Source: Kappaphycus alvarezii
Lineage: Eukaryota; Rhodophyta; Florideophyceae; Gigartinales; Solieriaceae
NCBI GenBank assembly: GCA_002205965.3
Contig: NADL03000544.1
Coordinates: 1-64,000 of the forward strand
Length of the DNA: 64,000 bases
Reading direction: 5' to 3'
Part shown: positions 3,680-58,818 of the stretch, piece after piece
How positions within the stretch are numbered: position 1 is the stretch's first letter
How the letters are laid out: every line of letters starts with the position of its first letter
Made by a program: the position numbers and the translations under genes
Notes under the pieces: model-generated
What the model saw: only the letters and a program-made list of their open reading frames with translations
What the model was told of the DNA's origin: nothing
The model's database searches: none

Positions 3680-4946
3680 ATGTATGCGCGAAGGTCTCTG
3701 GGTCAGGTGCAGACAGAAAGGACACATGGCCAAGAACTGCCCAAAAGCCCGGAGGAACTGATTGAAGGTCCACAGTCAGTTCCAGTCATCCAAGAACCAT
3801 TAAAAACCCTTGTGCTGGACAAAGAAAGTCGAGATTTATCATTGAATCAAACAAAAAGGTCCATCGTGTCCACCATCAGATCGAATGCAACGTTCATTGA
3901 AACATTCTCCCCTGCATTGGAGAGAAATCACAAGGTTCTTCTCATTGTTAAGGGTACAATTTCTGGTGGGCGAGCAAAAATCCTCATAGATCCTGGTGGT
4001 GAGATCAACTTCTTGAGTGAACCATTTTGCAAGAAACATCAAATAATGACCAGAGACTCCAGAGAGCTTGCTGAAATGGCCAACAGTGCGGACCAGATAC
4101 TTCAAGAATTGTTAAATGCCGTCAGTGTACATATTAACGCCTATAATGAACCTCTGTACTTTGCCGTAAGCCCATTGAAGCGTTATGATGCAATTATTGG
4201 GAAAGAATGGTGCGCCTCGCATGCGGCAAAAATCAATGGCCTTAATAATGAGGTGAAAAGAGAACATAAGGGAAATTCATTCATATCTATTGCTGATGAT
4301 ACCGTAGTGAGTCCTTTTGTATCTTTTAATACTATAGTTAGTGATTTCGATGAGAAAAAAGAGTTATTTGCAGTTTTACTTAGACCTTTACATTCTAGAG
4401 AACCAAGAGCACCCGTATACCCTCGAGACATACAGAAGGTTCTGAAAACATTTGCTGATGTGTCTCCAGAGAAGCTCCCAAGAGGTTTTCCACCGAGAAG
4501 GAAACAAGACTTTGACATAGAATTAAAGGAAGGAGCAGAACCACAGAAGAAAGGTCTCTATAGACTTTCTGGCAAAGAGATGTCAGAACTCCGAAAACAG
4601 TTTGGACGAGCTACTGGAAGCTGAGTTTATAAGACCAAGTAAGAGCCCCTGGGGGGCGCCTATTCTATTCGTAAGCAAAAAGGATGATAGTCTACGGATA
4701 TGTGTGGATTACAGAGCCTTAAACCGGCTTACTGTAAACAAAAGCTATCCCTTACCACGAATTGACGACATTTTCGACCAGCTTAAACGAGAAAAGTTCT
4801 TCAGCAAACTTGATCTTAGATCTGGTTATCATCAGATTAGACTACACGAATATTCGATTCCATTTACCGCCTTCAGAACACGATACGGGCACTTTGAATT
4901 TCTTGTTCTGCCGTTTGGACTCACTAATGCCCGCCAAATTTTATGA
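3680..4946 (+). pseudogene. pol: Gypsy element 1 protease and N-terminal RT
   Basis: The first frame (3680-4624) starts in the nucleocapsid and contains the retropepsin-like segment ILIDPGGEINFLSEPF near 3980-4030. The usual active-site triplet D-S/T-G reads D-P-G here, so protease activity is doubtful. A frame change at about 4602 leads into the RT fingers and palm: [36 protein letters not shown] and [13 protein letters not shown]. The frame ends at 4944-4946 just before the YLDD motif. These motifs are diagnostic of Ty3/gypsy RT. Confidence 0.82.
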
Positions 4947-6385
4947 ACCTAATGAATAACATTTTTAAGGATCAGCGCGACTTATTTGTGATCGTCTATC
5001 TGGATGATATTCCCATCTACAGTAAGACATGGAAGGATCACTTGGACCATATTCGAACTGTACTCGAAATCCTCAGAAAAGAAACGTTGTTTGGAAAATT
5101 AGCTAAATGTGTTTTTGGAGTTACAGAAGTGGAGTACCTAGGACACACCATTTCTCAAAGTGGTATTTCTGTTGATCCAAATAAGATAAGTGCAGTCATG
5201 GAATGGCCGATACCAAAGAATAAGCAACAAGTACGGTCTTTTCTTGGTTTTGTCAATTATTACCGGAGATTAATAAAAGGCTGTTCAGTTCTTGCGAAAC
5301 CTCTGATAGAATTGACGAAAAACGTGAATTTCCAGTGGAGCCGCTTTCAAGATGATGCCTTCAAAGTACTCAAGCAAACACTTTGTAGCGCACCGGTTCT
5401 CAGAAATTTCGACGCCGCACTGCCTATCTACGTAGCCACAGATGCATCACAGTATGCAATTGGTGCAGTGCTGGAACTGGAAGAATTAGGTTCTAAAAGG
5501 CCGGTCGCTTTTGCGTCCAGGACTCTTAATGATGCGCAACAAAACTATGCGGCCCATGAAAGGGAACTTTTGGCCATTGTAGATTCCCTGAAGTGGTGGA
5601 GATCCTAACTTTATGGTAATTCATTCACCATTCACTTGGACCACTATCCCCTAAGGTACCTAGAAACCCAAGAAAACTTGTCCCTGAGACAAGTGAGGTG
5701 GCTGGAAAGATTAATTAATTTCGACTTCAAGATAATCCCCATCTCAGGAAAATCAAATGTAGTGGCGGACGCACTATCGAGGCAACCACAAGATGTTCCG
5801 TCACCTAATCATCAAAAAAATTCATTACTCCAAGAAGTTATTTCCAAGACATCCTCAGAATCCAATAATATTTCGACCATATCATTCACGAACACTGAGT
5901 TAGTGGGGTTGGCAGAAGAATATGGTAGGGATGAGAACCTCAGAACCCACTATCAAGATCCTAAAGCTCCCTTTGAGCGTCGAGGGGTGCTTCTACTTGT
6001 AAACAAGAAGATCTGTGTACCAGAAGGAAATTTCAGAGTCAAGCTCCTGCATGACTATCATTCCACGCCTAACACGGGACACCTAGGAATAAGCAAAACT
6101 ATCAACAGAATATCACCAAAGTTTTATTGGAAAAAATTAAGTTCAGATGTAATCCGATACGTACGTTCCTGCCAATGCCAGAGAACCAAAGCAACCAATC
6201 AGAAGCCCGCAGGTCTTTTACAACCACTAGAACCACCGAAAACCAAATGGACCCACATAACCATGGATTTCATCACACCTCTCCCAAAGTCGAGAAGTGG
6301 AAACAACGGCGTGTTAACAGTCGTTGACAGACTTTCTAAGATGATCAGAATAATACCAACGAAACCAAACACAGATGCTCCTTAA
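4943..6385 (+). pseudogene. pol: Gypsy element 1 RT palm, RNase H and integrase N-terminus
   Basis: The RT catalytic motif is intact as VYLDDIPIYS near 5000. It is followed by the thumb and connection (VEYLGHTIS, KQQVRSFLGFVNYYRR). RNase H follows (IYVATDASQYAIGAVL, then HERELLAIVDSLKWW) to a stop at 5606-5608. The frame resumes at 5636 with DHYPLRYL and ADALSRQP, then the integrase HHCC zinc finger (HDYHSTPNTGHLG with CQCQRTK) and the first catalytic Asp in MDFITPLPKS. A stop falls at 6383-6385. The decay consists of point stops, with the domain order preserved. Confidence 0.85.
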
Positions 6386-24214: not shown

Positions 24215-25300
24215 TTTCTTTGAACAACTACTCCTTAGTGACACATCCAGCAGCCATCCCTTTCTTAAAATCTCTTTCAAACTGTCGTATTTTACTCACC
24301 TCATACAGAGTTTACCGAAACAACCTTTGACTGTAACCTGAATTTTCAAAGAGTCAATGCTTGCTCTTTTCAATTTGTAAATTCTCTGGCAGCACTTCCT
24401 CCAAACCTTTCCTCACATAAAATGTCCAATCGTGACTGCATCCATCAACCAGGCGATATGTTTGCAGAAAAAATCTCTCCATTATACTTAAAAACTTTGT
24501 ACTTGAGGCTATGCATTCCGTTTTGACCATTGTAAGCCAACATGCGCATAATCTGCTTCGCAGGTTTCCCGATTCGAACTATCGTAGCATCTATGAACCT
24601 AAAAAAATATCGAATACAATTCGACTTTCCATGTATTGCCTGTGCATGAGTAGATGCCCCCGATTATACAAACTTTTTGCTCAGTCCATTGCTCAACAAA
24701 TGTCCTTTCCTATCAGTAAGTTTCTCTTCGTCTTCCACCAAAAGTTCCCTAAGCTGAGCATGCTTTCTAAACACTACTTCTAGATCAATCTATCCAGAAG
24801 GTGTAGCAAGTCGACGAAGAATAATGAAGGTAACCAACAAGGCGTTGAACGCGTCACGGTTTCTACTCATCACCAATTTTTCAACTGGCCAATCGATAAT
24901 GTTCATAGTTCCCTTCATATTGCACCTCTTAAATGTGAACAGCGACAGACACCCAACCTCACTGAAACTGTCCAAGTTAAACTGAAACTGCGAATTACGG
25001 ATTCTGTTGCTTCTTTCTATGATCCGTGTTAAATCTTTATTAGAATTTACATCATCTGGTGCCATATCGACTGGCGCCCTTGCCACACTGAATTCCGAAC
25101 TAAGAACCTTCTGGCGTTCTTTGCAATAAAATAAGAGCTCTAGGTTATCTGCTCGTTCACTGCGGGCAGAGCTCCGTTGAGGTTTCCTTTTGCCTGGCCA
25201 TGCGCATGATTTTGAGTTCTGTACAACAGCAGTACTCTCAGCCCTTGTGGAGTTAGTATCCCTACTTGATTTTTTATTTGCCAGAGCGAAAACGTCTTTT
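24215..25300 (-). pseudogene. PIF/Harbinger-type DDE transposase remnant
   Basis: On the minus strand the order is a basic N-terminus, then the helical domain with LLVTFIILRRLATPSG followed by WIDLEVVFRKHAQLREL-like sequence. The DDE_Tnp_4-like core follows: FIDATIVRIGKP (near 24,600-24,560, first catalytic Asp), then KYKVFKYNGEIFSANISPG and the GCSHDW motif (near 24,455, second Asp). A C-terminal RQFERDFKKGMAAG near 24,270 matches the usual tail that carries the last acidic residue. Frame breaks at about 24,780 and 24,470 inactivate it. The motif order is what I know from Harbinger/ISL2EU-like transposases. I did not find its terminal repeats. Confidence 0.6.
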
Positions 25301-27311
25301 CAAATTTCAGAAAATAATTTCGTAAATAATTTTCAGAAAATTTATTATTCCACGTATTTCGGAGATTTTTTCAGAATTCTCTTTATGTGTAAAATTACAA
25401 CTGTCCCTGGACACCCAATAGTTTAAATATCATTGAGTCCTCCAAAACTGCTTTATTCAGCTTATCTCAGGAAACTATATGCGAGGGATAGAAGCAATTT
25501 TTTGCATCATCTTAAGTTTTTCAGAGATAATAGGCTAAAGCATTGCAAAAAAGAAGGATATTAACTTTGGAAATCATTATACGAATTTAATTTCAGTAGA
25601 GAGTGATTGAAGTTTAGTGTGGCAGTTTTTTAGTCTCCAGTACAAAATAATTTCCTTTTTTGGTTAATTCGAACATTTAATTTTAATTAAAAGATTAAAT
25701 TTATCTTTTAATCTTGAATTTGACTGTGAAGGTGTGAATTGAAAAATTAAGCCTTTATGTTGGTAAATAACGTCTTATTTATTTTAAAACCAAAATGATT
25801 ACGAGAAAAACACAAATTGAAAAGGTGTGCAAAGCAATATTATTATTCAAACGTTAAAAATTGAGTATTCAAACACAAAAAAATCATCGAAATATTTTTG
25901 GGCTACAGTTTTTTATTTCGTTCACCTCCAGGTTATATTGCGAATATTTATGCAATCTTTTTTAAAGCTCCCGCATGCCTCAAAAAAGGAGCCATGTAAG
26001 TGAAACAATCAAATGAACTCTCAAAAAATCTACTTCTTAAAAATAAGGGAGTTTATACTAATTTTAAATTTTAAACTTCATACAGAAAGCCAAGGGAGGT
26101 TATAATCAGTATCAAGAAATGTGATCGAGATCCAAGCAGCAAAATGTAGCCCAGTCTCATTTCCAAAGACTCAAAATATGAATATCTTCTAGATCAAAAT
26201 TTATCTTTTTTTTTAATTTTTTAGCAACAGTGTTACATGTTCAAGACGTTTTTAGGTTTAGATGAATAAAAATGAAGTTAGTCAGCTTTAACTAGAACGA
26301 TAACTGAAATATTTTCAACCATCATCGTACATATCAGTAGTACGACACGGAAGGATAATGAGAATGGTCATTAGTTGCGTTTTGAAAGTATGTAACTTTT
26401 AAAACAATTCCTATTTAATTCTACTGTAGTAGATTCATAGTTTCAATACTTTGAGCTACTAGTCTCCCATAAAGTTTAGAGACTCAAATTAATTAGTCCA
26501 TAGGAGTTTTATTCGCGTATTGCTGCCTTTTTTGACATTTTAGCTCTGAGAATGAACTTAGAACTATCAAAAATTGTAGTAAAAATTCACCGACCTGGTT
26601 AGAAAAGACACAATACATTTGGGACAATTAACAAATAAATATAATATCACTATGTTTTTATCATATGAATTATTAGACATTATTTTATTCCTATACCATT
26701 CCATGTAAAATAGATTTGGTTTTCAGAATTATACCTTTTATTTTCATAAATGAAGATGTAAAGTTTTAGAGACTGTAATTTAGAGGCTACTTCCTTAATT
26801 TTTCGTCGCTTGGTTAATTTCAAAATATTTAGACTAAAATCATATCCACCTTGAAGCAACAGTTAATAGTGATTCATTGAATTACAACTGACAAATAAAC
26901 CACAATAGCTTAAAAAATTTTTGCGACTCAAAAAATTGTAATTCTATTTCGACTGCGACCGAATTGATTAGGATTCACTTCGACTCTAATATATTTTAAA
27001 ACTACTTAATAAATATATATGCACTGATTCCCAAGGTAATAGATTTATATTTTGCAGTATCTTGTTTATAAAGAAATAGAAATCCATTATTATTCCATTA
27101 GTTTTCAAAATCAAAGAACGCCAGCATAGTAAATAATATAAATATCTCTTAAGCAGAATCTCAAGAGCTAATAGCTCATCTGTCACTCTAAGTATGACTC
27201 TGTTTATGAACATTAGAAAGTTAAGCAGAGATTTTTGTAAATGTTACGAGCAACTGTAACATAAAAGAGATGATTAAGTGATGTACGCATTCATAGTCTA
27301 GTTGTTTAAAC
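25300..27311. other. AT-rich sequence without recognisable genes
   Basis: About 2 kb of AT-rich sequence with homopolymer runs. I see no coding domain, RNA gene or ordered repeat. Confidence 0.5.
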
Positions 27312-30034
27312 AACGTCAATAATTTCTAGTTAGTGGAGCAGCTCTTAAAAATGCATCCATAAACAGACCTTAAACTTCCATTTTGAAATCAATGGAATCG
27401 AAATTTATTGCACTTTGGGATAGAAGATACACGGAGAAAATTCATTCAATTCTCCTATTTATCTTCCAATAGATTTATTTTAGCTTAGCAGCTCAAATAA
27501 TCCACCAAGAAGAGTATTTCACCGCAAAAGAGTAAAATGTTTCCCAAGAGTTGAAAGAAAATTGGTTTATTATTTGAATACTAAAAACAAATTTCACGAA
27601 AATATATTCCCTGATTCTGGCATTCATCTTTTGCAAAAACTGTTGCTACTCAAGAGATATTGAAAGGTTCCCATAAATAAGTTTTCTCTCTCTGCATGAA
27701 AGAAAACGAATAATTTTAGAAGCTCAAAATGGCCCCAATGTCTCTAATAAGTGAAATCTTTGAGACTTCTTTTTTCCGTAGAGATTATCACCTCTTAATT
27801 TTGAGCAAATTAAGAGAATATCTTATATAAAGGGACTTAGTATTGCTCTGAGACTAATGTGCTTCAAATTGGAATATTTGAGGCTTTCGAAACAGTTACT
27901 TTAAAAAAAAACCCAAAGCATGTCCCGTTCATAATTAAAACTATTTCGCTTAAATATTTTTACTCCTGTAGTATCTGTAATGACCGCAATTTTTATTTGA
28001 AGCATTTATTGAACCAAGTGTTTCTATGATTCCTTTTAAATGTACTTCTGTATTCTTATTTCTGCTCTATTATGCATATCAATGGTTACTGTGTCGGTAT
28101 AGTGCGAAAGTACTGAAAACTTGTCTTGCTTACGCATTCATAATATTGTAAATAGAAATAGAGAAACTAGAAAAAGCACTCTGGTCGATATCGGGGGTAA
28201 TTTTAAGAATAACTGAACAAGATACTATTTATACTCGAATATATTATATGTTAATCTCTAAATAATTTGCCTTCTGCGAATACTATTATCCAATCAACGT
28301 AACAGTTTAGAACATAAATATAGCATAAAGTGGGTCTGCAATCAAAATATCTTTGGAGAAAGCCGATATATACAAACATCAACTTTGCGTTTGAGATGTA
28401 CTTGCTACGACACTAATCTCTCTGATGAGAACGTCTGTTTCATTTGGGGACTTTTAGGTATTAATAATGCTTAAAGTGTTTTATTGCAATGCTCCAGATT
28501 TAAAATTCTTTTGAGTGCTTGGAAAAATTATACACGAAAGCATAGAATAGCTCAAATCTCACAACAAATTTATCTTTGTGGCAACTGCCGGAAAAATTTA
28601 TTCAAAGCATTTTTTTTCCAATTTAGTACCGGTGTAAACCCGAAGGAAACCATATCAAGATTGTATCAAATGGCAATCCAATTGCTGAATTTATATTTCT
28701 CGGAAACGTTTGACATGAGTTGTTTGAGATCAATACTTTCTTCTGAGCTGAAATCAAAAACTAAATATCCTTAAATACAAAACCCCACATAATTTTAGAA
28801 TTTCAGTCTTAATTTTAACATTTTACATTGCAATCGGAATAAAAAACTTATGAACGTCCTACTTGTTATTGGAACGATTTAATTACCGAAGATGCCACAG
28901 ATACGTGAGCATAGCTCTTAAGAAATGGAATCGGTAGATCGTATCTCTAAATAGGGTCAGTAAAATATTTGCTGACGTTTGTGAAGGAGCCTGATTTCAG
29001 TAAGCAATGCGATAAGCAAGCAATGGTTCCCTATCCTGCATATCGACGGGAAATAGGATAATGACAAATAAAATTGATATCAGGTCGTGTCATTTCATTC
29101 ATCAATTATGTCAGTTAGTTGTTTCAAAAATAAAAAGTCAAAGATGGGAAATGATGGACATAAAATTATCCATGCAGAACAAGTCAGGTACTTATTTACA
29201 TATTTGCCCAATCGTAAATATTACGACATGGAATGTCTTTTTAGACATTTTAATTGTTCATTTGACGATAAATAAATGGCATTCCTGCGAGCAATAACAT
29301 AATATGGTAAAATGAATATCATTAAATTATTTTTTTCATTTTATATATATATAGAAAGATTAGTATTAATAATAATACATAATGATAAGTATAATAATTG
29401 TATTTGATTGATATCTAATGGGTAGTAAATTTACCTGTTAGCTATCAATTAGGTGCGCATTATCTTTGTGATGTTGGAAAACTAATAAAAATCCGAATAA
29501 ACTTTGAATAGTTCATCAAATACAGACACAGACCGAGGAAATACTTGGGCTTAGTACCACAACCAACTGCAAAAAATCCTTGAGCTTGCCACTGGCGAAA
29601 ATTAAATATCGAGTTCACAGCAGTATTTGTGTAAAATTCGGAAACATGGAAAAATCAAAAGATTTTTATGTAGTGCTTAGCTCCAATACGAGAAAAGGAT
29701 AAAGGAATACAACGGAAGTTTTTCTGTTTTCAAAGTAATCAATTTACAGTAACTAAAGCTAATTAGACCACAAATTGGCAGCTACTCAAATCTTACACAT
29801 AATTTGTAGCTTTCACCCGTACTACTGTTGTTTATTTTAGGGCTTTTATCTATTCCTAATATAAATTTCATATTGATTGAAAAAATAAACACTGAAAGGT
29901 ATAAAAGCAGAAAAGACTAGTATTTCTATTTGATGGTATCAGTTTGTACCAAACTGTGATCAATTCTAGAGGCTCGAGGAACATAATAACGAAAAAGCGT
30001 CTCGAGGTGTCCAGATAGTTTTAGCAAAGGCAGT
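27312..30034 (+). repeat. 2.7-kb direct repeat, copy A
   Basis: This segment recurs at 37,061-39,782 in the same orientation, shifted by 9,749 bases (9,748 at the end because of one base lost from an A run). By eye only about 10-20 differences are seen, most of them clustered in the first ~40 bases. It contains two small identical open frames (28,484-28,774, no ATG start; 29,061-29,297) with no recognisable domain. No terminal inverted repeat, LTR or target duplication is evident at the ends. It is therefore better described as a segmental duplication than a known transposon. Confidence 0.95.
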
Positions 30035-31795
30035 TATCGGATTTTTAACGGCTCATCTCGTGTTGCCTTGGGATACTAGGAAATTAAAAATTTTCAGTTC
30101 AGGGTCAGAAGTTTTTTCAAAATGTGTACTAAGTGCTCAAGTAAGGACAACGGTAGACAATTCAAAATAAAAGAGGAGTCAATTAACTCAAAATTAGCGT
30201 TCAGGTGAATCTTTGGTTTGAGGATTGTAGACGAAACCGTATTGTAGGTCACTATTTCATAAGCATAGATATTGAGGTATCGGTCGTATTTATTTCTTGG
30301 TACTATTATTCTCTCAAATATAAAGGAGGGAAATTTTTCTGGAACTAGTAAATTGTCAATTTACAATCTCACCAATCATCTCAATAAATTAAATGGCGCT
30401 AATCAAAGTTTCAGTTTTCGCTCGGTAATAACTCATTTCAACGCTATAAATTACTGAAAGTTAGTAGTTAAACTAAGAGTACCATTTTTTTACGGTGTTT
30501 TGAGACTTATTTGGTTTCAATTGCCGTTAATTTGTAGAGTATTCAAAACTTATTTATATGGTTACATAAAATCCATAATAGTTCCCACTGTTTAGCGCTT
30601 AACCTCTATTACAAACATTGATATTTGACATTTAATATTTTTTGCAATAGAATTATGTTTTAACAATCAATTGGCAGGAATTGTTTGATTTCCTCTGTAA
30701 ACAATTCCTTTTTGTATGAGAATTGTAGTGTGAATTGGATCTTTTCCCATTTAAACTTCTCAATTTGACAAATGGGCTCACAAAAAACCTCTTGGTTTAG
30801 TGTCATCGTAATTGCAAGTATTCATTTTTGAAGAGCAGTTTTCGATGGAGTTTCGACTTGATCCTAGTTTTATCAATGCTCTCCATCCGGATGAAAAAAT
30901 AGCTAAAGAAATTTTACCTCTACTAATATTCCAAGTCGGACGCCATTTTCGATCGAAAAAGGGGAGCTCTGAGAATGAAAACATTAAAGCTCTATTTTAA
31001 CTTTTAAACATATGTAGAGTAAAGCGAAGAGTAATTAAACCATCAAATCGAATTGAAAATCTTGAATTTAGATACAGAATATTCTAAGGTATCAATAAAG
31101 ACATGAAATTGATCATTATAGAACATTTTTTTACATTTCCGGATTCCTTACTAACCACACTTGTATATGAGAAACTTTTTGAGTAGAATGAAGCGCGAAA
31201 ACTTGGATACGCGTTAAAGCTTCGCACTCAAGAATCTATCTTTGATCATGAAAAAGGACCCAGAAGTACATGAAAGTTGAAACCTATAGCACCTGTATGA
31301 GTGCACTGAACAAATTTATAGTTTCCTATCTTAGTAGAGGCAATCTTTGATGCTACGGAAAGAGCTATAATTATGATATAGCGTAATAGGTAATTCTATT
31401 ATTCAATTAAATGCATTCGAATGCAATAAGTGTTTTTTGGATTTATTTGAATGAATCGATGGTGGTTATAACTAGGGTACCCTATTAATTTATTCTGTAT
31501 CATTTATTTTTTCACATTTTTGGCCACTGCTGCAGTCTTATTGAATTTCCCTGGAAACACCGAGATTAGTATACATTTACTGCATAAAAGTTACAAATTG
31601 CTTAAAATAACGGAAAAGGTAGTCTCGCGACCTCTTTTAACGTTAAAAATCAGTTACATGGCCCTTGACTCTTGAAGAACTTCTCATACGACCCGTAAAA
31701 CATATTTAATGGAGATTGAAGAAATAAAATAATACCCATCTCAATCATTCGAAGTTTTTTTGTCCTACTCCCTGTTTATATTCTAGCATTACATA
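30035..31795. other. AT-rich spacer without recognisable genes
   Basis: AT-rich, with short open frames only (for example 30,812-31,000). No motif, RNA gene or repeat is recognised. It lies between repeat copy A and the inhibitor-like gene. Confidence 0.5.
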
Positions 31796-31806
31796 GGCTA
31801 TATATC
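31796..31806 (+). promoter_or_regulatory. Probable TATA box of the inhibitor-like gene
   Basis: GGCTATATATC lies about 120 bp upstream of the ATG at 31,923. A shorter TATA-to-ATG distance (about 90 bp) is seen for the neighbouring protease gene. Confidence 0.4.
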
Positions 31807-31922
31807 AGGCTTTCTTGTGTCACTTCTAGTACTTCTACACCCAAAATTTTCAAGAAGGTTTATTGCAGTTACTGGCAGCTCCTTCCGTGTCAAGTTCTTA
31901 CTACGTGAAATATTTGAAGATA

Positions 31923-32513
31923 ATGGACGTTAAGCGAAAATTTTCTCTCTCTTTTTTTACGTTTTACATTGTACTTGCGTCATTTAGTACTTTCCCTTCT
32001 GTGTATTCCGCTGCCGTGGTATTATCTCCGAACGTATCCGTCTCACCTATTGCTAGTTTGTCATTGCAAAACGGATTAGATCAAGAGCGTAACTTTGAAA
32101 TGGATGGTTTTTCGGAACGTTCCACGTTTCAAGAAAGTCCTGAGGCAACTTCCGAAGAAGACATGATTGAAACGACTCCTAGTCCGTCTGAACCAACTCC
32201 CGAACAGTTTTCAAATTCACAGACAGGGCAGGGTGAAACAATTCAGAACTCTTTCATCGTTCAAATAAGCAGCCGCTGCCTTGAACCATGTGAAGTAAGC
32301 ATTAATGAGGCGCTTAACAAGGGAGAAGCCACGAAGACATGTTTTCTGCGCGAAGATGTCAACATCGGTAGCCTTCACCAGTTATTTATCGATTGCAGTG
32401 GAATTGAAGGGTCAGTTACAATCGAAAATATTAAAGAATCCATCGAAATGGAGATAGGTTCGTTTGGCATTTCTATTGTTTTGGTAGAAAGGGACGGAAC
32501 TGTTTCAGTATAG
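31923..32513 (+). CDS. Secreted protein with stand-alone subtilisin-propeptide-like (I9-like) domain
   Basis: Predicted 196-residue protein. I chose the ATG at 31,923 because it gives a classic signal peptide (residues 1-30, MDVKRKFSLSFFTFYIVLAS and a small-residue cleavage site). A Ser/Thr/Glu/Pro-rich linker spans about 31-108. The C-terminal domain (109-196) closely parallels the propeptide of the subtilisin encoded 1.76 kb downstream. NSFIVQI matches GSFVVQI. Cysteines 119, 123, 140 and 158 match propeptide cysteines 38, 42, 59 and 78 with spacing C-x3-C-x16-C-x17/18-C. IVLVERDGTVSV matches VQLVRQDYVVTT at the end, where propeptides insert into the protease active site. There is no protease domain. 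Free I9-like inhibitors exist (yeast Pbi2, fungal POIA1; established), so a secreted inhibitor or chaperone of the neighbouring protease is the likely role (inference). No intron is needed. Confidence 0.8.
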   Translation: MDVKRKFSLSFFTFYIVLASFSTFPSVYSAAVVLSPNVSVSPIASLSLQNGLDQERNFEMDGFSERSTFQESPEATSEEDMIETTPSPSEPTPEQFSNSQTGQGETIQNSFIVQISSRCLEPCEVSINEALNKGEATKTCFLREDVNIGSLHQLFIDCSGIEGSVTIENIKESIEMEIGSFGISIVLVERDGTVSV

Positions 32514-34179
32514 TTGATTAGAGTAAGCGGTGGTTTGAGACAGATTGATATAAGAGCTCCACACGTGATCCACATTATGTTGAAAAACTAAATGAGTCTA
32601 TGCGACGTCTACAGTACCTGATAATGGTAGAATGATCTTTCGAAGATGATTCTCAAACTTTTCTATTTTGACGTCTATAAATCATTATCAAAAAAATTCC
32701 AAAACGGTTCCTAAAACTTCTTGAAAGGATGTCGCAATACTGACTGAAAACATTGAAAACAACTTAGTTAATTTTTTTGTAAGAGCCTATAGCATAGATA
32801 AAATACATTTCTGTAATTTTAGGAGCGTTTGTCAAATATTTTTATGCCAAAAATGGATGCCTAATTCCACGAAACAGGAATATTTGACTATTTGCTGAAT
32901 GCCATACTAGATTCTCAAGACGGTTTCCATTAAGACCCCCTAATTGGTACTTTTTATAGCTGAAAAAAATTAAACCTAGTGATCATTCATTAAAATTCGT
33001 CAACGCCTGAATTGTAAATGTTTTCACAAATTATTGTCATGTTTTTATTTGAAAAACAAGTCCAAAAATTTATTTTATTCCTATTCAATAGAATTTAATA
33101 CTAGAATATTTCCAAGGGGAAGCTGTCATCTCGGAATTTCAAGAAAATGGAAATACTGCTCTCACATTTTACCTGAGTTTTGGTTTCTTTTCGTATCAAG
33201 AGCGATATCTAAAATTTTTTGACTTTATTTATTACCAGTGTTCTGTGGAGATTGGCCAGTCGGTTTTCCTGCAACTGCGGTATTTCTTTAATTTTCATTT
33301 GTCTCTTTCGCAAGCAAACTTAGTTTTGGGTATTTCGTTAGTTTATTTAAGTACAAATTTATGTATTTGTGGACGAGTAGGGTATTGTGTAGACGAAATA
33401 ATCTGTCCTGGCGTGTATAGTTCTCACAACTATTTTATGTCATGGGAAACCATATCAGAACCCTTGATAAAATATATAAATCAGTAAGAAAACTATGCCA
33501 AGACCTAAAATTAACTTTGAAAACAAATAATTTTGCCCGGAAGTATCTTGTTGCTGGAAGGTATAGTGATTAATTTTTGATCAGATTAAAGTTAAAAGCA
33601 TGAGGAATATAAGAATTATTCGAAAAATCACATATAAATTGAAACGTAACTAAAAAATTGAAAAAAATTTCGTTGTGTTAATGGCTAAGAAACCGTTAAG
33701 TCAAAATAAACTCTGTGCAAATAATTTAAAATAAATTACAAAAGCATGCACGAAAAATGGTTCATATCTAATACGAGAATGGGGTAAATACGATGAATAT
33801 CTATTTAGCGGTAGGAATATTTTTTGATATACAAAATTTGAAATTAAATTTTCTGCTGTAGTAATATTCTGGGCCGAGGTTTCCTTCCCCGTCAAAAATA
33901 TTTTCTATAATATTTTTTTGTGCTATCAAATCCCATGAATCGGAACAGTTAAAAAATTAAGCCAACCAGGAAACGTAATACGAACCGCATCTATTCTATT
34001 GCTAACGGATATTTTCCCATCTTCCGATCATTTAAGGGGGTTTCGGTTAGGCGAAATTATAGTACGAATACGGCCGAGATTTGAAGGTGTTTTCGGTACA
34101 TCTAAAGGGAAAAATATACAGAGATTAAGCAGTAACCGATAATGCACTAAAAGTTTTCCTGCGACACTGAGAATGTAGT
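32514..34179. other. AT-rich intergenic spacer
   Basis: The space between the inhibitor-like gene and the protease is AT-rich. It has only short open frames without motifs (33,034-33,222 and 33,245-33,487). It should contain the 3' end of the first transcript and the promoter of the second. Confidence 0.5.
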
Positions 34180-34188
34180 CTATAAAAG
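34180..34188 (+). promoter_or_regulatory. TATA box of the subtilisin gene
   Basis: CTATAAAAG at 34,180-34,188, about 85-90 bp before the ATG at 34,271. It is followed by a pyrimidine-containing leader and an A-rich context before the ATG (TTCAAAATGG). This fits a strong TATA-type promoter. Confidence 0.6.
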
Positions 34189-34270
34189 CTCTTCATTCGA
34201 ACTTTTCTCGTACGTCATTCAAGAATACAGCCTACCCATTCTTTTAATTTCAGAACTTACTGTTTTCAAA

Positions 34271-35464
34271 ATGGCTTTCAAATACTCATTTTTTTTATCC
34301 CTTTGTGTCCTTTTGGGTTCCGCTGCCTTCACCTTTGGACAAATTGTCCCAGGTTCTTTCGTTGTTCAAATTCAAGGTGAATGTGGTGATTCCTGTAAAC
34401 AGTCTCTGCAGAGTGCACTAGATTCTAGCACAGAAACAGCTGGCTGTACTCTTGGCGACTCTGGTGCTAAAATTGGAGGCCTTACTTTTGAAAACGTAAT
34501 TTGTCCTACATCTGACGTATCCGTTGCAGGAATTGGAGAGGAAACAGTTGAATCTGTGCTAACTGGCGAAAGCAGCGTTGCATCCAGTGCATCTGTGCAG
34601 CTTGTCAGACAAGATTACGTGGTGACGACCGCTGGAGCTCCAACCAGCCTCTGGGGTGTTGACGAAGCTGATGGTGGTGTTGATAAAGTAAAGAAAGAGC
34701 CAGTAAGAGACGGCCTCCGGACTTGCAGTGACACTAGCAACAATGGCGCTGGTGTCAACGTGTGGGTTCTAGATACTGGCTGCACTCCAGCTAATGGTGG
34801 ACTATGTGATGGATACTACGGTGGATCTAATATCTGCCAGGATAACCATGGTCATGGTAACCACGTCGGAGGAACAGTTTCTGATGCAGAATTTGGAGTA
34901 GCTCCGTCTGCTACTAGAAGCTGCGTCAAAGTTCTATCGGACTCCGGATCGGGAACATACACCAACGTGATTAAGGGTATCTCATTTGCTGCCGAGAATA
35001 GAAAACTTTTGAGTAACGGTGACGTGATCAATATGTCTCTCGGTGGACCAAAGTCCGATGCAGTCAACAATGCTGTCGATGAAGCAAGGAAGCTGGGAAT
35101 GTACTTCACGATTGCTGCTGGGAATAGCGCTGACAATGCATGCAATTACTCACCTGCCTCTGCCAATGGGCGCCGTATCTTCACAGTTCAAGCTCACAAT
35201 GAAAATCTTGAAGCAGCAAGCTTTTCTAACTTTGCCACCAAAGAGCTTTCTTGTACCGATTTGTCCGCACCCGGAGTAGCAATCAGGTCTTTGGGTGGAA
35301 CGAAATCTGGAACATCAATGGCCGCTCCACATGTGGCGGGAGCTTGTGCGATTTTGCTCTCTGACGGCTTGAAACCTACCAAGAAGAGACTTACAGCAAA
35401 CAGTGAGCGCATCAAGATAAAGGGAGCTCGCGGTCGAAAAACTCTCGGTCTCACTTGTGCTTAA
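34271..35464 (+). CDS. Secreted subtilisin-like serine protease (S8, proteinase K-like)
   Basis: Intact single-exon gene, 397 residues. A signal peptide covers residues 1-23. An I9-type propeptide spans about 28-120 (GSFVVQIQGE..., cysteines 38, 42, 59, 78; C-terminal VQLVRQDYVVTT). The mature S8 domain starts around 121-127 (APTSLWGVDEADGG). The triad is complete: Asp168 in VWVLDTGC, His195 in GHGNHVGG and Ser349 in SGTSMAAPHVAG. The substrate-binding MSLGG (255-259) and oxyanion Asn285 in AAGNS are present. Extra cysteines (152, 171, 179, 189, 218, 291, 328, 359, 396) suggest disulfides in a secreted enzyme. The protein ends soon after the domain, so there is no C-terminal extension. It hydrolyses proteins outside the cell after propeptide removal (family knowledge). 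It shares its propeptide fold with the product of the upstream gene, and both sit between the 2.7-kb repeats. Confidence 0.96.
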   Translation: MAFKYSFFLSLCVLLGSAAFTFGQIVPGSFVVQIQGECGDSCKQSLQSALDSSTETAGCTLGDSGAKIGGLTFENVICPTSDVSVAGIGEETVESVLTGESSVASSASVQLVRQDYVVTTAGAPTSLWGVDEADGGVDKVKKEPVRDGLRTCSDTSNNGAGVNVWVLDTGCTPANGGLCDGYYGGSNICQDNHGHGNHVGGTVSDAEFGVAPSATRSCVKVLSDSGSGTYTNVIKGISFAAENRKLLSNGDVINMSLGGPKSDAVNNAVDEARKLGMYFTIAAGNSADNACNYSPASANGRRIFTVQAHNENLEAASFSNFATKELSCTDLSAPGVAIRSLGGTKSGTSMAAPHVAGACAILLSDGLKPTKKRLTANSERIKIKGARGRKTLGLTCA

Positions 35465-37060
35465 TGTTAAATTTTGTACTTCATTTCTCATTGTTGGCAG
35501 CCCGTTTCGAAATTAATACCGGAAAACGTGCAGATTTGCACAGAAAGCTCAAATCCAAAACAATTTTACAAAATATTTTTAAAAGCAGTAATATTTCTTG
35601 CTTGTAATTACCATATATCGCCGTGTCCAAGTTTTTCTGTGTCTTTACTTTAATGATGTATCAAATCTCTTCTTTATGGATGAAATCCCTCTTACTTAAA
35701 AGGATTTTACAATGAAAAATACAGCTAATGCGCAAAGATAGTTTACTGCTAATAAATTTTGAGTACTTTTTTCATTGAACAGAAAAATAAATATAGAAGT
35801 TGTTACCGGAAATAGCGTAAAAATACATAAAGAAATAACCCCTACTTCAAGTGTCTGAACGACAGATTCCCTGCAAAATTAAACTTCCCGAATGATTGAT
35901 AAAAGGCCCATATAAAAGTTGCGGGGTGAAGAATGCTCCTATGTCTAACGATATAGGACAACTTATGAGTATTATACCACCTTTGTTCTCCTACTGGCTT
36001 TGGAACCTCGATTTCGAAATAGATTTCAACGCCGATAAAATATGATTATTTGCGCACGTACACAAATACTATGTTCAGTGCTACATGATGCACGAAAGGA
36101 GACGACTAAAATAAAATAAATAGTTTGAATGATTTAAGGTCCAACTGTATGCAAAAGAAATTGAAAACATGTACTCAACAAAGAATTCCAGTTTTTTTTG
36201 GTAATCATACATTTGCTTCATTGAATACCTTATATTAAGAACTCTATGAAAGTTTGTGAGGGCTCGAAAAAAGAAAAGTTGTGGTTGTAGTGAATTGTAG
36301 TGATATTTTAATTGATTTGTTCGAATTGTTTGGTGATTTAAAGGGTTCATAGTGATTTCAATTCAGTTCAGCAACGATAGTGAATAGCAAGAAAGATCTT
36401 GAAAAGCCCTGCCATCACCTTGCAAATTTTTTTATTCCTGATCATCTATATAACGTTTTCTAGTTAATTTCTCGTGTCAACATGGATGAAATTTTATTTT
36501 CCCTAATGGAAACAGGTAGAGAGCGAAATGGTAAAAAGGAGCAAATGTTTCATAATTTGCGCTCACATTTTTACTCTGTACAAATAATTATATGTAAATA
36601 TCTTTTACATTGTTTTAACTCTCATTTCTATAGCCTCCACAGGACTTTAATTGTGTACTTGCTTAATGTATCGAGAGTAGTTTTCAAGGATTTTACTCTC
36701 CACATGTTTAGAGAATATGTTAATTGTTCTGTGGGCAGCTCTATTGGCTCTCAACTAGAGGAGATCAGGGAATTCATAAAAACAACGATAGTCTGATACT
36801 TGGACAGAACAGTGTATTTTACACGTACAGGTCGATGTATGAAAATAATAGTGAATCATGCCCTTGGGAATTTATTTCATATATTAGTCTTCCTTTTCCT
36901 TTGCAAGTTATCACTTACTTCTCCAAAAATTTCCCTATCTCAGAAATTAAATTATGCACATAAAGTTTTGTCCTATTTGGAAGCAAAATTTTAACATACT
37001 CTGTTTAGTATTTAACAAATATGGTGACCTAGGAATTTCCTTTGACAGGAAACTGTAAAA
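35465..37060. other. AT-rich sequence downstream of the protease
   Basis: It should hold the 3' UTR of the protease. A 104-codon frame beginning at an ATG at 36,482 (to 36,796) has no recognisable motif and may be chance in AT-rich DNA. Nothing else is supported. Confidence 0.45.
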
Positions 37061-39782
37061 AACGTCAGTAATTTTTAATTATTAGACCAGCTCTTAAAAA
37101 TGCATCCATAAACAGACCTTAAACTTCCATTTTGAAATCAATGGAATCGAAATTTATTGCACTTTGGGATAGAAGATACACGGAGAAAATTCATTCAATT
37201 CTCCTATTTATCTTCCAATAGATTTATTTTAGCTTAGCAGCTCAAATAATCCACCAAGAAGAGTATTTCACCGCAAAAGAGTAAAATGTTTCCCAAGAGT
37301 TGAAAGAAAATTGGTTTATTATTTGAATACTAAAAACAAATTTCACGAAAATATATTCCCTGATTCTGGCATTCATCTTTTGCAAAAACTGTTGCTATTC
37401 AAGAGATATTGAAAGGTTCCCATAAATAAGTTTTCTCTCTCTGCATGAAAGAAAACGAATAATTTTAGAAGCTCAAAATGGCCCCAATGTCTCTAATAAG
37501 TGAAATCTTTGAGACTTCTTTTTTCCGTAGAGATTATCACCTCTTAATTTTGAGCAAATTAAGAGAATATCTTATATAAAGGGACTTAGTATTGCTCTGA
37601 GACTAATGTGCTTCAAATTGGAATATTTGAGGCTTTCGAAACAGTTACTTTAAAAAAAAACCCAAAGCATGTCCCGTTCATAATTAAAACTATTTCGCTT
37701 AAATATTTTTACTCCTGTAGTATCTGTAATGACCGCAATTTTTATTTGAAGCATTTATTGAACCAAGTGTTTCTATGATTCCTTTTAAATGTACTTCTGT
37801 ATTCTTATTTCTGCTCTATTATGCATATCAATGGTTACTGTGTCGGTATAGTGCGAAAGTACTGAAAACTTGTCTTGCTTACGCATTCATAATATTGTAA
37901 ATAGAAATAGAGAAACTAGAAAAAGCACTCTGGTCGATATCGGGGGTAATTTTAAGAATAACTGAACAAGATACTATTTATACTCGAATATATTATATGT
38001 TAATCTCTAAATAATTTGCCTTCTGCGAATACTATTATCCAATCAACGTAACAGTTTAGAACATAAATATAGCATAAAGTGGGTCTGCAATCAAAATATC
38101 TTTGGAGAAAGCCGATATATACAAACATCAACTTTGCGTTTGAGATGTACTTGCTACGACACTAATCTCTCTGATGAGAACGTCTGTTTCATTTGGGGAC
38201 TTTTAGGTATTAATAATGCTTAAAGTGTTTTATTGCAATGCTCCAGATTTAAAATTCTTTTGAGTGCTTGGAAAAATTATACACGAAAGCATAGAATAGC
38301 TCAAATCTCACAACAAATTTATCTTTGTGGCAACTGCCGGAAAAATTTATTCAAAGCATTTTTTTTCCAATTTAGTACCGGTGTAAACCCGAAGGAAACC
38401 ATATCAAGATTGTATCAAATGGCAATCCAATTGCTGAATTTATATTTCTCGGAAACGTTTGACATGAGTTGTTTGAGATCAATACTTTCTTCTGAGCTGA
38501 AATCAAAAACTAAATATCCTTAAATACAAAACCCCACATAATTTTAGAATTTCAGTCTTAATTTTAACATTTTACATTGCAATCGGAATAAAAAACTTAT
38601 GAACGTCCTACTTGTTATTGGAACGATTTAATTACCGAAGATGCCACAGATACGTGAGCATAGCTCTTAAGAAATGGAATCGGTAGATCGTATCTCTAAA
38701 TAGGGTCAGTAAAATATTTGCTGACGTTTGTGAAGGAGCCTGATTTCAGTAAGCAATGCGATAAGCAAGCAATGGTTCCCTATCCTGCATATCGACGGGA
38801 AATAGGATAATGACAAATAAAATTGATATCAGGTCGTGTCATTTCATTCATCAATTATGTCAGTTAGTTGTTTCAAAAATAAAAAGTCAAAGATGGGAAA
38901 TGATGGACATAAAATTATCCATGCAGAACAAGTCAGGTACTTATTTACATATTTGCCCAATCGTAAATATTACGACATGGAATGTCTTTTTAGACATTTT
39001 AATTGTTCATTTGACGATAAATAAATGGCATTCCTGCGAGCAATAACATAATATGGTAAAATGAATATCATTAAATTATTTTTTTCATTTTATATATATA
39101 TAGAAAGATTAGTATTAATAATAATACATAATGATAAGTATAATAATTGTATTTGATTGATATCTAATGGGTAGTAAATTTACCTGTTAGCTATCAATTA
39201 GGTGCGCATTATCTTTGTGATGTTGGAAAACTAATAAAAATCCGAATAAACTTTGAATAGTTCATCAAATACAGACACAGACCGAGGAAATACTTGGGCT
39301 TAGTACCACAACCAACTGCAAAAATCCTTGAGCTTGCCACTGGCGAAAATTAAATATCGAGTTCACAGCAGTATTTGTGTAAAATTCGGAAACATGGAAA
39401 AATCAAAAGATTTTTATGTAGTGCTTAGCTCCAATACGAGAAAAGGATAAAGGAATACAACGGAAGTTTTTCTGTTTTCAAAGTAATCAATTTACAGTAA
39501 CTAAAGCTAATTAGACCACAAATTGGCAGCTACTCAAATCTTACACATAATTTGTAGCTTTCACCCGTACTACTGTTGTTTATTTTAGGGCTTTTATCTA
39601 TTCCTAATATAAATTTCATATTGATTGAAAAAATAAACACTGAAAGATATAAAAGCAGAAAAGACTAGTATTTCTATTTGATGGTATCAGTTTGTACCAA
39701 ACTGTGATCAATTCTAGAGGCTCGAGGAACAAAATAACGAAAAAGCGTTTCCAGGTGTCCAGATAGTTTTAGCAAAGGCAGT
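37061..39782 (+). repeat. 2.7-kb direct repeat, copy B
   Basis: Near-identical second copy of 27,312-30,034. Visible differences are C to T in GTTGCTATTC (near 37,396), one A lost in CTGCAAAAATCC (near 39,320), G to A in GAAAGATATA, and three or four changes within the last 60 bases. The very low divergence means a recent duplication or ongoing gene conversion. The sequences to the right of the two copies (30,035 on, 39,783 on) are unrelated. Confidence 0.95.
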
Positions 39783-44041: not shown

Positions 44042-44448
44042 AAATCAGTATCTAGTATATAGTAAGTACTAACGAAACCTACTAGTGCTACCTACTATCT
44101 AGTGGGTACTTCTGGTAGGACTACTCACTATCTAGTAGGTACTAAAGTAGGTTATATATCTACTAGATACTAAGTACTATCTACTATGTAGGAGGTACTA
44201 TCTAGTAGGTACTAAAGTAGGTTGTATTCCTACTACATACTACCTATTATCTAGTAGATACTAGTTACTAAATATTAGGTAATATTTAGTAGGTACTAAA
44301 ATAACCTACTAAAACTTCCTACTATTATCTCGTAACTGAGTACCAGTATCTAATATGTAGTATGTAGTCGGTAATACTATTTATTTAGTATCTTGTAAGT
44401 ACCTACTAGTATCAAGTGTCTAATCCTCATGGCGTTGGCCTCATATGA
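44042..44448. repeat. TAGTA-type degenerate repeat array, left block
   Basis: Dense runs of TAGTA, ACTAGT, GGTACTA and their complements. A ~27-bp unit containing TCTAGTAGGTACTAAAGTAG occurs twice, 70 bp apart (near 44,131 and 44,201). The motif is its own near-complement, so the array is rich in short palindromes. A similar block lies at 47,420-48,010, on the other side of the piggyBac element. Confidence 0.75.
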
Positions 44449-55689: not shown

Positions 55690-57264
55690 GGCAGGCTTCC
55701 ATTGATTATTCCGGTTGGTGTGATGGTGGAAGTAACGACAATATTGTGTCACTCGTACTCGACCAACGAGTTGTCGTCCGTGGAGTCGGAAAATGACAGC
55801 TATCCGCCCGGTCAAGCTAAGCGTTGGGCTCAAGTCCGGAACGGATCCCCAAACATTTACCTTCTCCCAACCGTGCAGTTTTGGATTTGTCTGACTGTTC
55901 CAGAACTGGAAACCCAACTACTCTATTCCGAGACGTTGCAGTCAGCAGGATAATGGTTGCCCGCATCAACCATGTTCAGGATCTGGCCGGAGACTCTGAG
56001 ACCAGTACCCGACTGTACTCAAACCGGCCAAGGATAAAATAACATACCCATTTCCCGATCGGTCATTGTTTGACACACTGGATGTGGAACAAGAGCCCAA
56101 AATCCGTAGTGGTAATAAATTAATGAGAAACACCGCGAGGAAAAATGGTTTACCAAAAGGAGACAAGAAGGAACTCTCCGATCTTATCGAAAGTCACATA
56201 AACATTTTCCGCACCGGATTTTCGGCAGGACCAGCGTCCAACTTCAAGCTCATGTGCATTGACCTGGGTCCTGATGTCTTTCCGGTCAAATTTTGCCTCC
56301 TTAATCACTCGGAAGAGCAACGCGAGTTCCTGAAGAAATTCGCTGATGATCTCGTCCGAACCGGAATTTCATATCCAAACCCAACCTCTATACGTGGGCT
56401 TTTGCACCTTTGGTCGTCCCGAAACCGGGACCGGCCAAAATCAATTTCATTGTTGACCTCCACCCGGTCAACACATTTACTGTTGGGCATCAGTACCCGA
56501 TGCCCAACTTGGAACACGAGATTTATAAGCTTTCCAAATAACTTTATTGCGACACTTTTGACCTTTCTCACACTTACTGGCAATTGGCCCTTGAGAAACA
56601 GTTTCTGAATCTGCAATAGTTTATCACACCGGACGGAGTCTATTCACCTACCGGAGTCCTTCATGGGACTACCAATGCGGTCACGCACATGCATTCATTT
56701 ATTTCCGTATCGGTCCCATCAGAGTTGGCAAAGTCCTTCCTTCATTTTTTGGATGACATTCTGCTAAGCCACTGTAATTTCGAAGGTTTACTGGATACCG
56801 TTCGGAAGTTCTTCGAATTCTGCGCCGCGTTCAAAATCAAGTTGCATAACGGTAAATGCACCCTTTTTGGCACTAGAGTACGTTGGTGTGGTCGTTTAAT
56901 CTCTGAAGAAGGTATTCTTTATGATCCGAGACGGATCGATGGACTACTCGCAATGGAACCTCCGACAACGGGCGCGCACTTGCAGCAATTCCTTTGCGCG
57001 CTTCAGTGGGTGCGAGACGGTATTCCTCAGTTTTCCGAACTGATCCAGCCATTGAAGGACTTCATAGAACAATTCTATGACCGAGCCGGAAAGCACACGA
57101 AATGCACTGCGGTACGTATCCAACTCTCAGCTGTTGGATGGAGCAACACTGCAACGGAAGCTTTCAAGGCATGCAAACATGCCTTGGAGCATCACGTCAC
57201 CATTTCTCACTGTGACGAAACCAAGAGTCTTTCGTTCTATACTGCGTCTTTCGTTCTATACTGA
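55690..57264 (+). pseudogene. pol: Gypsy element 2 protease region and RT
   Basis: A degenerate protease region (about 55,690-56,040) leads into RT. The frame from 56,066 holds ELSDLIESHINIFRTGFSAG and VFPVKFCLLNHSEEQREFLK before breaking near 56,400. RT resumes near 56,689 with FLDDILLS (catalytic Asp pair at 56,752-56,757), then VRWCGRLISEEGILYDPRRI and LQQFLCALQWVRDGIPQFSE. The catalytic pair survives, but the finger and palm segment between 56,400 and 56,690 is shifted and broken. Confidence 0.75.
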
Positions 57265-58818
57265 CGCTTACGTTACGGTATGGTCTGGGATTGTTACTCA
57301 AATACCCACTGAAGACCTCTCGGAACCTCACTTGAGTAAACTTCACGAGCCGCTTGCCCTTTCATCCAGTCGGTTTAACACTACCCAACTCGGGTGGTCA
57401 ACCCCCGAGAAGAAGGCCTACGCATTGCACGCGTCACTTTAGCGCATGCAATGGCTCGCTGCGACACTGACCGGCTTTGATCTACACAGAGATCATAACA
57501 ATTTGATATTCCTCTTTGATCCACTTTCGGTTGTTCCTGATCTTTCTCAGACGTCCCTCTGTAAGTTACGTCGTTGGATCGTACGGTTGAGCACGTGCAA
57601 ATACACATGCTTCCAAATTAAGGGGACCGACAACGTCTTGGCAGATCTCCTGGTAGGTTGGTCTACACCCCGCACGGCAAGAAGACTCGTCCACATTCCC
57701 AAGCTACCTTCTTCGTCCGATCTGGAATTTGAATGGCCGTCGCACACGGTCCTCGTTGCTACACAAACGCAACACGCGAATGACCGTCCGCCGCAACCTA
57801 CCGAACGGGATCACCTTTGGCGCAATCTAAACAGTGCTATCTGGATCTCCGATGCAGACTCTGAAATGCAACTTCGTCTTTGCATCATCCCCTACGCCGG
57901 TTGGAGCGGTCATCGAGGTCACAAATCTACCGAGATTATTTTACGGAAGTCCTTCTTTCGGACTAATATATCATCCGATGTACTGTCCTTCGTTCGCGCC
58001 TGCCTACATTGTCTATCGACAATTTGAGGGGGAAGGTACCGCGATCGTTCGGACTTGCAATTCACGGGACATTTCCCAACGACCTCGTCCATTTTGACTA
58101 CATCGAGAAAAGGCTGAGTCTTAGTGGCGAAAAATACATCCTTATCCTCAGGGATGACCATTCGGATTAGACTTGGCTTTTCCCCTTGGCGGACACTTTG
58201 GCTGAAAACGCAGAGAAATCCCTTATCGACTGTGCAGCTGAATTGGGAGTTCCGAACAGATTGATGTCTGATGGGCCTACCCATCTCCGCAATGAGACCG
58301 TACCGTTATTAGCTAAAGGCTTCAAAAAGCCACACTATGTTACGCTTCCTTACTGTCCGTTTAGCAACGGTGCTTTCGACAGGATGGGCAAGGAGTTGCT
58401 GCCCGTATTCCGTTGGGTTGCATTTGAGATCCGTTTACGGTTTGGAGAGAGGCCAGACATACTGCCGCTGGTTCAGAGTGCCCTCAACAACTGTCTTTCT
58501 CCGCAACGGAAGAACATCGCTCCGATACCTGCATTTATGGGCAAGGAGCCTATGTCCCCTATCGCGGCATTTCTACATATCAAAACGGCAACACCGATCA
58601 TGTTTGATGGTGAAATGCTTGATATATTGCTGGAAATATCCAAGCTTCAGCAATCCGTTGCGGAACTGTACCCTGTGGTCCAAGATTCCGTTCTGTCTGA
58701 GCGCGAGCGCAAGCGAAATTCAGCATCGCGTGGAGAGCTTGCAAACTTCACTGACGAGGAATACGTATTGGTTGCCCGCGAGGACTTCTTTGCTGGGGAT
58801 AAACTAGCGCTACGCTAG
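57265..58818 (+). pseudogene. pol: Gypsy element 2 RNase H and integrase
   Basis: RNase H remnants appear as GWSTPEKKAYALHASL, then HRDHNNLIFLFDPLS (57,495-57,535) and FQIKGTDNVLADLLVGWSTP (57,610-57,670). The integrase zinc finger is GWSGHRGHKSTEII with FVRACLHCLS (57,900-58,020). A core Asp lies in LVHFDYIEKRL (about 58,085-58,110). The next segments are VPNRLMSDGPTHLRN and LPYCPFSNGAFDRMGKELL (58,240-58,400), followed by LVQSALNNCLSPQR. An Asn-Gly-Ala occupies the place where NG followed by an acidic-rich stretch is usual. A stop at 58,168-58,170 and frame changes inactivate the region. Confidence 0.75.

Follow-up and report, generated by a model that had tools for sequence, protein, structure and literature searches.

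A putative secreted, stand-alone relative of subtilisin propeptides encoded beside a proteinase K-type protease in the red alga Kappaphycus alvarezii

Stand-alone proteins that mimic subtilisin propeptides have been described in Plasmodium and Toxoplasma, and stand-alone inhibitors from Pleurotus, yeast and Arabidopsis are named in the same account (PMC6993865). The Plasmodium protein, SUB1-ProM (PF3D7_0507400), consists of 153 amino acids, has a signal peptide and is encoded by a single exon; its gene adjoins SUB1 in the same direction and is syntenic across Plasmodium (PMC6993865). In experiments SUB1-ProM potently inhibits SUB1, and its similarity to the SUB1 propeptide is low; its tail is one residue shorter than that of the propeptide, and the capping glutamate is retained (E146/N148), the corresponding pair of the BPN′ propeptide being E69/D71, which cap helices of the protease (PMC6993865). 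TgMIC5 of Toxoplasma, which regulates a subtilase, likewise mimics a subtilisin propeptide as a protein of its own (PMC6993865). Here we describe a 64,000-nucleotide stretch of DNA from the red alga Kappaphycus alvarezii (GenBank assembly GCA_002205965.3, contig NADL03000544.1, positions 1 to 64,000; hereafter the window), in which the gene for a proteinase K-type subtilisin is preceded, 1.76 kb upstream on the same strand, by an open reading frame (ORF; positions 31923–32513) for a free-standing protein that is homologous to subtilisin propeptides. The reading that we favor, with moderate confidence, is that the product of this ORF is a secreted, stand-alone inhibitor that has the propeptide fold and is directed at the protease clade to which the neighbor belongs.

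In layout, as described, the two systems are alike: the Kappaphycus protein, like SUB1-ProM, stands alone, is encoded by a single exon and has as its neighbor a subtilisin gene that runs in the same direction. The earlier note on this locus had suggested that a disulfide-bearing, secreted, genetically linked free propeptide looks new; for secretion and linkage this has to be given up in view of SUB1-ProM (PMC6993865). What appears to be new here is the red-algal lineage, the proteinase K-type neighbor, the four cysteines and the long, acidic Ser/Thr/Pro-rich linker. SUB1-ProM is apicomplexan, and SUB1 is another kind of subtilase than the proteinase K-type protease of the window; the predicted algal protein differs from SUB1-ProM in its four conserved cysteines and its linker, and in the main text of PMC6993865 no word begins with “disul”. 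TgMIC5 resembles the algal protein in being a stand-alone propeptide mimic and comes from a different lineage. Among the open-licence papers listed we found neither a red-algal nor a four-cysteine stand-alone case, and no title on red-algal, Gracilaria or Gracilariopsis subtilisins that concerned these proteases; extracellular proteolysis in seaweeds seems to be little studied. The stand-alone inhibitors that go by the short names POIA1, Pbi2 and SPI-1 are small, and Pbi2 is cytosolic. These inhibitors have a free-standing propeptide fold, which is predicted for the Kappaphycus protein as well, and inhibit subtilisin-like proteases; unlike them, the Kappaphycus protein has no match to the Pfam I9 profile.

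The two ORFs are present at both positions, intact and on the + strand, as had been described earlier. That of the free protein (31923–32513) begins with ATG, comprises a single exon and encodes 196 amino acids; the longest ATG-initiated ORF in 2000 random 5.2-kb sequences, modeled on the AT-rich surroundings, had 172. At the N terminus, a 13-residue hydrophobic stretch beginning at residue 9 (mean Kyte-Doolittle value 1.98) marks a probable signal peptide (residues 1–29, end approximate; 31923–32009). The signal peptide named in the earlier note is read from this stretch only, and a second stretch at residue 176, within the propeptide-like domain, comes close to it in hydrophobicity (1.88). 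A Ser/Thr/Pro-rich acidic linker follows (residues 30–107; 32010–32243), containing 13 Ser, 7 Thr, 7 Pro, 14 Asp plus Glu and 2 Arg, neither Lys nor Cys, and a single N-glycosylation sequon at N37. The remainder is the propeptide-like domain (residues 108–196; 32244–32510), with cysteines at positions 119, 123, 140 and 158, the motif E189-x-D191 and the C-terminal tail GTVSV.

By sequence comparison, residues 108–196 are homologous to the propeptides of red-algal subtilisins, well beyond chance. Two profile hidden Markov models were built from the propeptides of other proteases (14 and 22 sequences); both genes of the window were excluded, and P0015, which has no junction fitting the pattern, was left out. 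Against these profiles the free-protein frame scored 40.4 and 48.5 bits (E = 1.7e-11 and 5.2e-14, respectively); when the window's 1571 stop-to-stop frames were ranked, it came second, after the protease frame, and the third frame with the 14-sequence profile was the antisense of the protease propeptide, at 13.8 bits. Residues 104–196 alone scored 39.8 and 46.2 bits, compared with 28.0 and 25.8 bits for the best of 100,000 shuffles (50,000 plain and 50,000 with C, G and P held in place). These query-free profiles supersede an earlier shuffle test in which the query was within the alignment (32.7 and 40.0 bits; best shuffle, 29.0 and 27.4).

Compared directly, the free protein and its neighbor show modest similarity: BLASTP aligns them with 35% identity over 49 amino acids (E = 3e-6 for that one comparison). 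In a global alignment of the domain with the neighbor's propeptide, which the earlier note had matched along its whole length, 30/90 positions are identical. The details given in that note hold: the two proteins share the motif SFxVQI (SFIVQI and SFVVQI), the cysteine spacing C-x3-C-x16-C-x17/18-C and similar ends, LVERDGTVSV-stop in the free protein and LVRQDYVVTT in the neighbor. Cysteines with this spacing, loosely defined, occur in the free protein and in all 14 of the closest relatives of the protease (P0001–P0014, among the matches listed), and the pattern is found in 21 of the 23 propeptides examined, being missing from P0015 and P0016; in P0021 the pattern picks an out-of-register cysteine, the aligned third cysteine position being serine. 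In the red-algal homologs named “Proteinase K” or “Cerevisin” (Gracilariopsis chorda P0002 and P0013; Agarophyton chilense P0005 and P0006), the homologous domain, with four cysteines and a similar end, is the N-terminal part of the protease precursor, whereas in Kappaphycus it has a gene of its own. Among more distant subtilisins, P0018, P0020, P0021, P0022 and P0026 have propeptides with three or four of the cysteines. As these sequences retain them, the cysteine-bearing propeptide is spread beyond the closest red-algal set.

Since ...LVERDGTVSV-stop of the free protein aligns where the neighbor has ...LVRQDYVVTTAGAPTSLWG, the free protein stops about one residue short of the pro/mature junction. 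As a phmmer search spanning this junction did not return proteinase K, the exact position of the junction is an approximate placement, set by the relatives' alignment and by analogy with proteinase K. E189-x-D191 falls at the position of the helix-capping pair E69/D71 of BPN′, and aspartate occupies the third position of this motif in 19/23 of the aligned propeptides, the neighbor's included. The proximity of the domain end to the propeptide end could also be accounted for if the ORF were an alternative first exon, with a transcript from 31.9 kb spliced past the TAG into the protease gene to give a second form of the precursor. Although the shared strand and a GT just ahead of the stop codon would suit such splicing, each ORF makes up a complete single exon that has an ATG of its own, and visual inspection showed a TATA-like stretch upstream of each and no suitable in-frame acceptor at the junction; we consider this arrangement extremely improbable.

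With an alignment of seven rows, AlphaFold2 predicts for the free domain strands at 30–40, 66–73, 76–82 and 110–118 and helices at 46–58 and 92–106 (model numbering). Block means of the predicted local distance difference test (pLDDT) are 85–94 over the domain and 53–63 over the part of the linker included in the input (residues 76–105). In this model the four cysteines share one edge of the sheet: one follows strand 1, one falls in the opening turn of helix 1, one precedes strand 2 and one follows strand 3. A fold search with the model did not single out subtilisin prodomains among its matches.

How might such a protein act? The signal peptide would direct the protein out of the cell, into the wall or the extracellular space, and the linker would serve as a spacer compatible with the wall. 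The β sheet of the inhibitor would pack onto the mature protease at two of its surface helices, which E189 and D191 would cap, and the tail GTVSV would occupy the non-prime subsites, ending just short of the scissile bond and so blocking the enzyme. The protein would thus act like a propeptide that does not have to be released from a precursor. Stapled by two disulfides, the domain could be slower to digest, providing a brake longer lived than a transient propeptide. In favor of the inhibitor are the query-free profile homology, the cysteine spacing in 14/14 close relatives, the E-x-D motif and the stop near the junction; we also count the lack of a catalytic match after the ORF and the drift simulation, both described below, and the precedent of SUB1-ProM. 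If this is confirmed, linked stand-alone propeptide inhibitors arose both in apicomplexans and in red algae, which would point to the splitting off of a propeptide as a repeatable route to a matched inhibitor, and the version with four cysteines could inhibit subtilisins with unusual stability.

Several observations weigh against this reading. Without an alignment, AlphaFold2 gave a poor single-sequence model (pLDDT 41), and the predicted fold therefore depends on the propeptide rows. The glutamate of E-x-D is found in only 3/14 of the closest propeptides and 9/23 in all, the neighbor having R-x-D. No solved structure was matched in a sequence search with the free domain. Pfam I9 (PF05922) matched neither whole protein at E = 1 and neither domain at E = 10, and the free domain is accordingly not classed as PF05922; as the neighbor's true propeptide and P0001–P0024, which among the matches listed show PF00082 only, are unmatched too, the I9 profile appears to miss this lineage. 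The free domain is not sister to the neighbor's propeptide in the tree. Codon preference lends the free-protein frame mild support, two reverse frames having scores close to its own. A single-sequence search (126 candidates) and an alignment search (1910 candidates) yielded no relative of this protein at E ≤10, and none appeared in viral contigs either; these searches depend on shared 5-residue words or exact patterns. Finally, the tail of the SUB1 propeptide is dispensable for inhibition, and C-terminal truncation of SUB1-ProM left parasite growth in vitro unaffected (PMC6993865). For these reasons the argument from the tail is weak on its own, and the role of an inhibitor of this kind can, judging from the truncation, be subtle.

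How did the free domain originate? When 23 propeptide domains were placed in a tree, P0015 and P0017 being omitted, it formed a long branch outside 18 rows that hold the neighbor's propeptide, a split whose support (86/81) is under the threshold of the tool; 2/20 inner branches reach that threshold, and the placement of long branches is unsure. Because of the 30/90 identity and the branching outside the neighbor's group, a recent tandem truncated copy of the neighbor was rejected. On this evidence from the sequences, the free domain is an old or fast-evolving offshoot rather than a new truncated duplicate, and fast evolution may have followed duplication. We also looked for a catalytic remnant in the 1757 bases between the genes (32514–34270), using as tblastn queries the protease and the inhibitor of the window and 22 relatives; the best match reached only E = 0.056, and the candidate was rejected. 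When the DNA of the neighbor's propeptide was drifted neutrally by substitutions only, an open frame and all four cysteines survived in 202 of 4000 runs at 70% identity, in 60 at 60%, in 19 at 50% and in none at 33%.

These results bear on the possibility that the ORF is a remnant, either silent or in decay, of a subtilisin gene copy that was truncated and lost its catalytic part. In favor of a remnant are the setting, which is rich in repeats, lies near a telomere-like array and contains retroelement pieces and the duplicated 2.7-kb repeat, the lack of relatives among the 126 and 1910 candidates and the mild codon preference; young drift is harder to exclude, given the 202 of 4000 simulated copies at 70% identity. 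However, the 196 codons are open, the bases that follow hold no better catalytic match than that at E = 0.056, four cysteines, E-x-D and the tail persist at about 30% identity, which is rare under drift (0/4000 at 33%), and the N-terminal linker is absent from the neighboring protease. We therefore regard a remnant as unlikely.

The neighboring gene (34271–35464, + strand) encodes, from an ATG and in a single exon, a 397-amino-acid precursor of a proteinase K-type subtilisin of the secreted type. Alignment places its propeptide at about residues 26–121 (34346–34633), with cysteines at 38, 42, 59 and 78, and the PF00082 match (residues 159–365, E = 1.7e-27) together with the motifs DTG 168, HGHG 193, AAGN 282 and GTSMA 347 defines a mature catalytic domain of about residues 122–397 (34634–35461) with the Asp/His/Ser triad and the oxyanion Asn present. 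NCBIfam gave seven matches to the protease, all sub-threshold, and none to the free protein. The completeness of this propeptide also bears on the suggestion, made in the earlier note, that the free protein is a trans-acting folding chaperone for the neighbor or another subtilisin. Subtilisin propeptides do aid folding (PMC6993865), but because the neighboring protease has a complete propeptide of its own, as do, with four cysteines, the 14 closest relatives among the matches listed, and as a chaperone would not need a long linker, this function seems quite improbable.

The relatives of the protease were taken from the best 120 of 6652 matches, of which P0001–P0022 and P0026 were used in the comparisons. 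Among the matches listed, the top named homolog is the “Proteinase K” of Gracilariopsis chorda (62%), two homologs of Agarophyton chilense reach 59% and 61%, and one further relative reaches 69%. Since the named close relatives are red-algal, the idea that the locus encodes a virulence protease finds no support; judged by the same relatives, the window is probably nuclear DNA of a red alga near Gracilaria and Gracilariopsis. In prokaryote and viral contigs there were pattern matches to the protease, none of which was confirmed by tblastn as a relative. Among solved structures, those closest to the mature protease are bacterial aqualysin, further extracellular enzymes of the proteinase K-like kind and proteinase K itself.

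The kinship with aqualysin and extracellular proteinase K-like enzymes raises the possibility that the inhibitor is aimed instead at foreign proteinase K-type subtilisins of marine bacteria, fungi or grazers, as a defense, its position beside a subtilisin gene being incidental. Subtilisin propeptides sometimes inhibit heterologous subtilisins (PMC6993865), and the free domain has diverged far from the neighbor's propeptide. On the other hand, it retains the red-algal four-cysteine pattern, scores well against red-algal propeptides and is linked on the same strand to an endogenous protease, and we think a foreign target rather doubtful. An inhibitor of the neighbor's own clade thus remains our preferred reading, and within that clade the neighbor would be the main target on the grounds of linkage and shared family; its propeptide ranks sixth of 23 by pairwise alignment score to the free domain and is not adjacent to it in the tree.

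The gene pair sits between two direct repeats of 2.73 kb (27307–30034 and 37056–39782, both + strand), which are 99.5% identical and contain no long ORF. Of the 12 mismatches between them, seven are confined to the first 32 bases and four to the last 136; the stretch between these edges has a single mismatch and a single gap. Because the differences concentrate at the two edges, the pattern suggests an older duplication homogenized by gene conversion. The repeats start with TAAA and finish with CAGT, and we rejected a long terminal repeat (LTR) retrotransposon carrying the pair, as there is no target-site duplication and there are no TG...CA ends; the two outer repeat ends have no 5–8-mer in common within 10 bases, and two 5-base matches that flank single repeat copies (TTTAA and AAAAC) are at chance level. 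It is conceivable, although we hold the idea only tentatively and think it on balance unlikely, that the linkage of a secreted subtilisin to a separate, disulfide-stapled, secreted and long-lived brake arose independently in a red alga, near a chromosome end between homogenized 2.7-kb repeats, and that the two can be amplified or lost as one balanced cassette.

Both genes and both repeats lie in an AT-rich block (25000–39782). Per kilobase, G+C content between 25 and 40 kb is about 29–34%, except over the two genes, where it rises to as much as 45%; it is 33–47% in the 9 kb to the left of the block and 36–56% to its right. The window opens with an 803-base telomere-like tandem array of CCCTAAAT-type units (1–803), about 31 kb from the pair, and this array indicates that the window start is probably a chromosome end. 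LTR-retroelement ORFs lie on both sides of the pair (3680–6385 and 56689–58027), with aspartyl protease, reverse transcriptase, RNase H and integrase zinc-binding domains; the matches at 56689–58027 fall just under the curated cut-offs. No RNA features or tRNAs were found in the 64-kb window. An ORF at 10974–11513 matches a DEAD/DEAH helicase domain (E = 2.4e-12), and a tandem-repeat cluster at 44120–44408, made up of 70-bp and shorter ACTAGT-rich units, also forms a long imperfect palindrome.

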